Shown here one piece after another: positions 7,080-41,519 of a DNA stretch of 64,000 nt. A program made the position numbers and the translations under genes. Each line of letters opens with the position of its first letter. Position 1 is the stretch's first letter. Under the pieces are notes generated by a model. That model did no database searches. It saw nothing but the letters and a program-made list of their open reading frames with translations, and had not been told where the DNA came from. This stretch comes from Thermomicrobium sp. (GTDB taxonomy: Bacteria; Chloroflexota; Chloroflexia; Thermomicrobiales; Thermomicrobiaceae): positions 1 through 64,000 of the forward strand of contig JANXBE010000002.1 in the NCBI GenBank assembly GCA_025060175.1, read 5' to 3'.

Positions 7080-7103
7080 GTGGGGGAAGAGCTGCGGAGC
7101 GGT

Positions 7104-7195
<92 letters not shown>

Positions 7196-7375
7196 GTCAG
7201 GCCAAGGCTAGCACGCCGCCGGCATGGACCGCAACCGGTCGTCAGCATGGCCGTGCAGGCGCATCGGAGTCGGCGATGTCTCCCCTCGACCGATCACCAC
7301 GAGGCAGAAGCGGGTCGTATCGATATACTTCCGCCCGGGCAACCCGGTGTGTGGCCGGATGTGGAGGAGGAGCGC

Positions 7376-31284: not shown

Positions 31285-31394
31285 CGCTCATCTCGAGCGG
31301 TGGAGGGAACGGCCCGACGAAACCCGGCAACCAGCGCAGCTCCTGCGCCAGGTGCCAATGCCGGCGGAGTATGAAGACTCCGCACGATGAGCGC
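31285..31394 (+). promoter_or_regulatory. SAM-I (S-box) riboswitch upstream of metX
   Basis: The closing stem GCGCTCATC/GATGAGCGC is a perfect 9 bp. Inside are the conserved S-box blocks GAGCGGTGGAGGGA, CGGCCCGACGAAACC, CGGCAACCAGC and CAGGTGCCAATGCC. A variable hairpin CGGAGTATGAAGACTCCG follows. It lies between a consensus promoter and a U-tailed terminator, and the downstream gene makes O-acylhomoserine. High S-adenosylmethionine should switch transcription off. Confidence 0.97.
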
Positions 31395-40260: not shown

Positions 40261-40524
40261 CTAGATCACGTGCTCCAGTCTCCCGGCAGGTCGAGGAGCG
40301 ACAGCGCCGAGGAGACGCTCGAGCGCCATGATATGGCTGCAGGTCCCCACGCCAAGCGCCTGGAACGAATGGCATGTGCAGGACCACATGCCATCCTCGA
40401 AGCGGACATCATAGAGGTCGTGATCACCCCGGAACCGGACGTGCAGCGACCGAATGTCCACCCGCTCCGGCTCGGCCGCATAGCGACGGGCCTTCTCGAT
40501 CTTCCCGATCAGGCTCGAGTTCAT
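40261..40524 (-). CDS. Small SWIM zinc-finger protein
   Basis: The product is 87 residues. The C-terminal half has the SWIM pattern CTCHSFQALGVGTCSHIMALER (C-x-C-xn-C-x-H). SLIGKIEKARRYAAEPERV and HDLYDVRFEDGMWSC precede it. SWIM domains bind zinc and mediate nucleic-acid or protein contacts, often beside helicases or recombinases; here it stands alone. The ATG at 40524 has GGAG seven bases upstream. Transcription likely starts near 40674, leaving a 150-base leader that contains a terminator and a possible 29-codon frame. Confidence 0.85.
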   Translation of the reverse strand: MNSSLIGKIEKARRYAAEPERVDIRSLHVRFRGDHDLYDVRFEDGMWSCTCHSFQALGVGTCSHIMALERLLGAVAPRPAGRLEHVI

Positions 40525-40565
40525 GGCCCCACTCCTTTCGACCCCACAGCCCTCAGGCCCCGCTG

Positions 40566-40608
40566 CCCCAAAACACTCGGGCACCAGGACGCACGATCCC
40601 GGTGCCCG
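40566..40608 (-). terminator. Terminator in the leader of the SWIM gene
   Basis: On the minus strand CGGGCACC and GGTGCCCG pair around a loop of about 15 bases, followed by AGTGTTTTGGGG. It lies 42 bases upstream of the SWIM start and 66 bases after the predicted transcript start, so transcription may be conditionally terminated. A frame starting at ATG 40642 (GAGAGGA upstream, MNGGPNIQERAAG...) runs through it. Confidence 0.6.
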
Positions 40609-40680
40609 CCGCTCGCTCCTGTATGTTCGGACCTCCGTTCATGGCGGGGTCCTCTCGTTCTCCGAGGAGTGATTACGCGT

Positions 40681-40709
40681 ATTATACTGGCGCGGTAGGG
40701 GTCGGGCAA
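40681..40709 (-). promoter_or_regulatory. Promoter of the SWIM gene
   Basis: On the minus strand TTGCCC (40709-40704), a 17-base spacer and TATAAT (40686-40681) predict a start near 40674. Confidence 0.75.
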
Positions 40710-40874: not shown

Positions 40875-41519
40875 ATGAGCACGAGCGTTGCGATCCTCGC
40901 CGGCGGCCAGAGTCGTCGGATGGGCCGGGACAAGGCCCTCCTCGACTTTCACGGCGAACCCCTCTTGGGCCGGGTGCTCCGACGGGTGCGACCACTGACC
41001 GACGATCTCTTCATCGTGGCGAGCGACCGTCCAGCCTACCTGCAGTTCGGCGTCCCAGTCGTGCCCGATCGGATCCCGGACGCTGGCCCGCTCGGAGGCA
41101 TCTACAGTGCGCTGCTCTCCGCTCGACACGAGTATTGCCTGGTTCTCTCCTGTGACCTCCCGTTCGTCGATCCCCTACTCCTCCAGGGACTGTTGGCGCT
41201 TCCCCGCGACTACGATGTCCTCGTTCCGCTCCGCGCGCAGCGCACGGGCCAAGGCGGATCGGAGACCTTCGAGACGCTGCACGCGGTCTACGCCAAGTCC
41301 TGTCTTCCTGCCATCGAGCGGCAGCTCGCTCGTGGCCAGTTCAAGATCGTCGGATTCTTCTCGGAGGTGCGGGTACGGCCCGTCCCGGAGGAAGAGTTGC
41401 GCCGCTACGATCCCGAACTCCGTTCCTTCCTGAACGCCAACACGCCGGAAGCGTACCGCTGGGCGCTCGAGCAAGAGGCGCAGGGATGGACCGCTCGAGC
41501 CGATGAGACCGACCAGTGA
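40875..41519 (+). CDS. mobA: Molybdenum cofactor guanylyltransferase MobA-like
   Basis: MobA attaches GMP to molybdopterin for molybdoenzymes of the DMSO-reductase family. The product is 214 residues: VAILAGGQSRRMGRDKALL near the N terminus, VVPDRIPDAGPLGGIYSALL, YCLVLSCDLPFVDPLLLQGL and FLNANTPEAY. These are the nucleotide-, magnesium- and product-binding blocks of the family. ATG follows GGGGGACGG. No other cofactor gene is adjacent. MobA- and MocA-type transferases overlap in motifs, but DAGPLGGI and NANTPE favour MobA. Confidence 0.88.
   Translation: MSTSVAILAGGQSRRMGRDKALLDFHGEPLLGRVLRRVRPLTDDLFIVASDRPAYLQFGVPVVPDRIPDAGPLGGIYSALLSARHEYCLVLSCDLPFVDPLLLQGLLALPRDYDVLVPLRAQRTGQGGSETFETLHAVYAKSCLPAIERQLARGQFKIVGFFSEVRVRPVPEEELRRYDPELRSFLNANTPEAYRWALEQEAQGWTARADETDQ

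Follow-up and report, generated by a model that had tools for sequence, protein, structure and literature searches.

A probable translation-coupled transcription attenuator in the leader of a stand-alone SWIM zinc-finger gene of Chloroflexota

The window (the whole 64,000-nucleotide stretch of Thermomicrobium sp. DNA analysed here) encodes a stand-alone SWIM zinc-finger protein of 87 amino acids on the minus strand (40261–40524, ATG at 40524). The protein matches the Pfam SWIM family (PF04434) with 22.9 bits, against a curated cut-off of 19.6, and the CxC...CxH pattern is present. Its Shine-Dalgarno sequence, GAAAGGAG (40532–40539), was read from the sequence, and upstream of it lies a leader of several parts, all on the minus strand. 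A sigma-70-type promoter, TTGCCC-17-TATAAT (40681–40709), agrees with the consensus at 10 of 12 positions, and from its location transcription is expected to start at about 40674. Downstream, a second Shine-Dalgarno sequence, GAGAGGA (40650–40656; duplex of −9.6 kcal/mol with a generic 16S tail), precedes a short upstream open reading frame (uORF; MNGGPNIQERAAGTGIVRPGARVFWGSGA) of 29 codons plus stop (40553–40642), which begins with the ATG at 40642 and closes with a TGA ending at 40553.

The uORF crosses a G+C-rich hairpin of 13 pairs (nine of them G-C) with a 5-nt loop (40578–40608, dG −25.0), which shows compensatory changes in relatives and is followed by the tail AGTGTTTTGG (40568–40577), a weak, displaced U-tract. 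A further hairpin, P1 (GGACCCCG / CGG-A-GGUCC; 40629–40652), holds the uORF ATG in its loop and is a feature of the leader family described below. The preliminary description of this DNA had listed the promoter, the GAGAGGA-preceded 29-codon frame across a hairpin and the 87-residue SWIM protein, and all three are present; the leader stem that it reported is there as well, but is longer than first described. The nearest recognised gene upstream of the leader (MobA-like, 40875–41519) is on the opposite strand, so the hairpin probably does not mark where some minus-strand gene farther upstream ends. Rfam places no element at the leader; at the gathering score, the window contains only a SAM riboswitch, a TPP riboswitch and one tRNA.

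The window alone is no proof of a terminator, since a scan of a 2-kb stretch finds one terminator-like site against 0.7 on average in shuffles (sd 0.8), and the fold of the leader has a z of −1.93, matched by seven of 200 shuffles. The same scan finds two promoter-like sites against a shuffle mean of 0.1. The leader passes the strict rule used throughout this study (a hairpin with dG ≤ −12 whose 8 following bases include 5 or more T, located within 200 nt); its U-run, which begins 4 bases past the stem and has GGGG after it, is weak, short and displaced. The SAM aptamer (31285–31393, plus strand) leads into a hairpin whose stem is directly followed by a clean TTTTT, and the TPP aptamer (7090–7198, minus strand) has a terminator-like hairpin with the tail ATTTTCG. 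Compared by eye with these riboswitch terminators of the same window (TTTTT and ATTTT), the U-run of the SWIM leader is displaced.

Among seven leaders of the window genus, two (G000 and G006) have a terminator by the strict rule and two more (G003 and G004) by the relaxed rule only; neither scan finds a terminator in the other three (G001, G002 and G005), and the uORF start region is kept there. Because of these failures and the displaced U-run, the element in the window may be weak or decaying. The case for the predicted terminator is carried by its conservation in relatives, not by the statistics of the window. Three loci of the genus (L006, L007 and L008) retain the uORF start and its hairpin, with no terminator found by the scans. 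At two loci (L004 and L005, from genomes G006 and G003) the uORF is open, stop-free and in frame with SWIM, and could be an N-terminal extension of the protein.

We found SWIM matches in 40 of the 41 genomes searched (the window's own counted) and in at least 60 public-collection contigs titled Chloroflexota or one of its subgroups. A draw of 400 genomes from the phylum gave matches in 303; among the 283 of these 400 with at least 90% completeness and at most 5% contamination, 220 have one. When the upstream regions of 90 loci were read, promoter, Shine-Dalgarno sequence, short frame, and hairpin with U-tract proved recurrent, but not universal. A scanner for bulge-free stems detected hairpins in 37 of 89 leaders (22 of 890 shuffles) and was replaced, as it missed many. 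The looser replacement was positive in 69 of 89 leaders, but also in 119 of 356 shuffles and in 70 of 300 regions lying ahead of other ORFs (taken from 424), and we therefore rely on the strict form.

The strict rule identifies terminators in 60 of the 89 leaders of the first set, against 15 of 178 shuffled leaders. In the hold-out set of 96 leaders fetched later, which are non-identical to first-set leaders but possibly kin and were first examined in the same script that set the thresholds, it identifies 61, against 15 of 192 shuffled leaders. The comparison of leaders of SWIM orthologues that the preliminary description proposed thus yields strict terminators in 121 of the 185 leaders collected across the phylum (184 distinct). 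They are absent in 64, including five of the seven of the window genus, and the stem sequences differ from clade to clade. One first-set leader (L032) repeats another (L020); without it, there are 120 terminators in 184 leaders.

In 30 of the 60 terminator-bearing leaders of the first set (186 of 1800 shuffles) and in 24 of the 61 of the hold-out set (189 of 1830 shuffles), the uORF with the best Shine-Dalgarno sequence has its stop codon no more than 6 nt from the hairpin foot; the shuffle rate is about 10.3%. An offset of +2 between stop and foot is the commonest in each set. When every genus contributes a single leader, using the genus labels of the 400-genome draw (73 leaders, 42 with a terminator), the count is smaller but still above chance (15/42; binomial p 1e-5). 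Among other terminators in the same DNA, a stop at the foot occurs in just 20 of 449, compared with 54 of 121 in SWIM leaders (53 of 120 without the repeat; Fisher p about 1.7e-25 for 54/121, kinship ignored). The chosen uORF stops away from the foot in the other 67, among them the window's, which reads into the hairpin. The frame across the hairpin noted in the preliminary description is therefore one of two forms.

A Shine-Dalgarno duplex of −6 kcal/mol or better is found in 101 of 121 terminator-bearing leaders and 184 of 449 other terminators; because an SD-led frame also arises in 46–47% of shuffled leaders, this is weak evidence by itself. The distance from the SD-led start to the hairpin foot is 25–55 nt in 91 of 121 leaders (90 without the repeat), as against 52 of 449 other terminators, a range that was noticed on both leader sets jointly before this comparison was made. 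It holds in 91 of the 101 leaders with a duplex of −6 or better, and the window's uORF, with 34 nt from ATG to foot, falls within it. Stop-at-foot frames (91%, n = 47) and read-in frames (96%, n = 47) share this spacing, which is seen in 27.7% of shuffles (n = 1142). Such a common spacing suits the idea that the decisive event is the arrival of a ribosome at the foot.

Stop-at-foot frames most commonly have 12 codons, and they end in TGA (21), TAA (17) or TAG (16). Tepidiforma flava and a Candidatus Chloroploca strain are among the members with this form. Their peptides have common beginnings within groups (MGAK, MKTCVTT, M-IPLA) and different ends, the stop staying at the foot while the ends vary (e.g., MKTCVTTWLRGV, -CG and -VV). 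By inspection, we saw no conserved arrest sequence at the peptide ends, either within related groups or between clades, and no run of regulatory codons among the peptides listed. Nor did we find an antiterminator pairing with the 5′ arm of the terminator in the 80 nt upstream of it (mean z +0.25, n = 121, one leader below −2). Eight uORFs (L088, L089, L090, L103, L107, L115, L142 and L149) start with ATG CGA GTN (MRV) and differ in the rest of the peptide; three (L057, L137 and L141) start with ATG CGG GTT.

In the leader family of the window (f1), the hairpin that holds the uORF start folds in all 20 leaders given; a 21st (L009) was left out because no matching start was seen. The five pairs of the P1 core are kept in 100% of the 11 leaders counted, four of them invariant and one alternating between GC (7) and CG (4). 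Conservation of the terminator stem, which the preliminary description had named as a point to check, is found in 11 leaders of the family: the stem is 91.7% paired, and three pairs are changed on both sides. The covariation score of 0.222 is higher than in any shuffle (0.103) or any slid version (no more than 0.086). Two of five covariation measures, both-side changes and further pair types, are not above shuffles (251/500 and 287/500, respectively). A P1-like start hairpin is not general in the phylum (54 stop-at-foot leaders, mean z −0.5, 18 below −1). Within f1, the start-codon hairpin may tune initiation at the uORF.

We also scanned both strands for the composite of a terminator, an SD-led uORF stopping at its foot and a −10 box. 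The scan covered the window and, apart from L001, every locus of 1500 nt or more (the collected DNA, shorter loci included, amounts to 630,345 bases). All 29 matches fall in SWIM leaders, some of them fetched twice (L020/L032, L022/L110 and L065/L111); since the loci were fetched around SWIM genes, this says little on other genes elsewhere. The next ORF is SWIM in 25 of the 29, and at the other four (L018, L019, L022 and L110) a chance ORF is reported next, with coordinates still inside the SWIM leader. It is the comparison of leaders that shows promoter, Shine-Dalgarno sequence, start-to-foot spacing, stop at the foot, terminator and, in the scanned DNA, the link to SWIM.

A promoter with at least 9 of 12 consensus matches precedes the uORF in 74 of the 89 leaders tested and 3 of 89 shuffles. 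The gap between hairpin and SWIM start is shorter than 45 nt in 60 of 121 leaders, which leaves little room for a second promoter. A scored promoter is present in 101 of the 121 leaders with a terminator, and just one of these 101 lies within 60 nt of SWIM. In the group lacking a strict terminator, 29 of 64 leaders carry a scored promoter; it lies within 60 nt of SWIM in 16 of them and farther away in 13. Given these 16, the whole leader seems to be missing in at least as many cases.

From these observations, we consider it likely that the SWIM leader is a translation-coupled transcription attenuator, and ribosomes on the uORF probably decide SWIM transcription in many Chloroflexota. RNA polymerase would make a leader with a short uORF and then the intrinsic terminator. 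A promptly initiating ribosome would be at the hairpin foot as polymerase crosses the U-tract. Located at the stop codon at the foot, or passing through the hairpin in the read-through forms such as that of the window, this ribosome would cover the 5′ arm and block the hairpin, and polymerase would continue into the SWIM gene. With no ribosome at the foot, the hairpin would form and leave a leader RNA of about 105–110 nt, in the window with its 3′ end near 40567. The switch would be the position of the ribosome, not the sequence of the peptide and not an antiterminator RNA. We propose occlusion by position given the lack of an antiterminator within 80 nt and the reach of the ribosome past a stop codon, which a passage of PMC4833913 puts at up to 12 nt; cover of this length suffices to occupy most of the 5′ arm. 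An E. coli study (PMC5021804) states that close coupling of a ribosome keeps intrinsic terminator hairpins from forming.

Actual termination and its occlusion by the ribosome are steps that we infer from the layout. The core idea of the preliminary description, control of the terminator by uORF translation, is well supported by the leader comparison, whereas its direction and conditionality are deductions. Because both forms of the uORF have the same spacing, translation would most simply mean "on", and we give this sense a little better than an even chance. The opposite sense is somewhat doubtful: in healthy cells, a ribosome that finishes the short frame would leave, letting the terminator form and switching SWIM off, and slow or stalled ribosomes near the stop would hold the hairpin open and switch it on, as in antibiotic- or stress-sensing systems. 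The layout is the same as that of msrDL-msrD, where, in the text available from PMC10314930, a ribosome stalled at the uORF stop obstructs a Rho-independent terminator and the gene is transcribed; similarly, part of PMC12218461 describes a small gene of Sinorhizobium meliloti that is induced by tetracycline via a uORF, though Rho-dependently. Such stalling is at odds with the unconserved peptide ends, among which we saw no recurring arrest motif by inspection, and with the equally spaced read-in frames, which would melt the hairpin whenever translated and are a better fit to translation as the "on" state.

Autogenous control, in which SWIM protein bound to its leader (for example, to P1 of f1) would block the uORF or stabilise the terminator, would suit a zinc-finger protein and the maintenance of P1 in f1 with one compensatory pair; since P1 is not phylum-wide and the terminator stems vary between clades, we regard it as unlikely. 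Quite unlikely, too, is fixed attenuation, with the terminator as a constant reduction of SWIM expression or a shield from upstream transcription and the uORF incidental. The terminator does appear dispensable in some lineages, as 64 of 185 leaders lack a strict one and, among these, 16 carry a promoter immediately ahead of SWIM, but both the start-to-foot spacing and the stop at the foot are far above shuffles and the 449 other terminators. An SD-led frame followed by a terminator also resembles a gene, and the uORF might be an independent micro-gene with SWIM served by another promoter. The short gap between terminator and SWIM start (below 45 nt in half of the terminator-bearing leaders, 60/121), the unconserved peptide ends and the rarity of a stop within 6 nt of other terminators make this highly improbable. 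The translation-coupled attenuator remains the reading that we prefer.

Attenuators of the trp/his type also combine a leader frame with an intrinsic terminator. The SWIM leaders differ from these: we saw no stretch of regulatory codons in the listed peptides, and the search within 80 nt upstream turned up no alternative antiterminator. From what the available text of PMC10314930 tells, msrDL-msrD shares with 54 of 121 SWIM leaders (the window's not included) a short uORF with its stop codon at the terminator, but has a six-residue arrest peptide, senses macrolides and depends on a peptide-driven stall, whereas SWIM leaders have unconserved peptide ends, mostly 12 codons in the stop-at-foot form and a zinc-finger protein as target. 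In the Listeria hflXr leader rli80, as presented in part of PMC6310831, a uORF (14 residues) likewise precedes a terminator and read-through depends on the ribosome; rli80 differs in having an antiterminator, an anti-antiterminator RNA and an RLR motif, while no antiterminator was found within 80 nt in SWIM leaders. The S. meliloti duf1127 leader resembles them in that a uORF precedes a small gene whose function is unclear. According to the same partial text of PMC12218461, its first uORF codons can pair with the ribosome-binding site of the uORF and sensing of translation status has been proposed; termination there is Rho-dependent, whereas in SWIM leaders the terminator is intrinsic and lies at the end of the uORF or inside it. 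Among titles and abstract openings on stand-alone bacterial or Chloroflexi SWIM proteins and on leader attenuation in Chloroflexi, a coverage outside which most subscription papers fall, none was apparent on the SWIM leader.

If the attenuator reading is true, a whole phylum has retained a translation sensor linked to a single uncharacterised, widespread protein. The leader would be a simple natural system for asking when ribosome position alone can overcome an intrinsic terminator, and would give access to the function of the stand-alone SWIM protein. More tentatively, we envisage a phylum-wide switch tied to this one small zinc-finger protein in which ribosome position alone is the antitermination signal, with no arrest peptide, regulatory codons or antiterminator RNA, and in which SWIM reports or responds to the state of translation and might act on ribosomes.

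In an alignment of 55 SWIM sequences chosen from 90 loci, Cys49, Cys51, Cys62 and His64 are invariant, as are Met1, Ile9, Lys11, Ala12, Tyr15, Arg21 and Gly33. A structure model has a mean pLDDT of 88.6; fold comparison of this model gave nothing at E ≤ 0.001 (best Z 2.8), which does not imply a new fold, and a sequence profile search found no solved relative. No relatives were confirmed among viral contigs, and none of the window's protein in plasmids. Among the neighbours of SWIM at 60 loci (L032–L091), one cluster is widespread (25 loci); it is FolC-like by eye and lies downstream on the opposite strand in the eight members inspected. Any other neighbour cluster is found at eight loci or fewer. 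Tandem SWIM proteins occur at four loci, with 180 residues in L085 and L086 and 165 in L087 and L091; in the latter two, both CxC cysteines of the second copy are replaced, by Ser and Ala.
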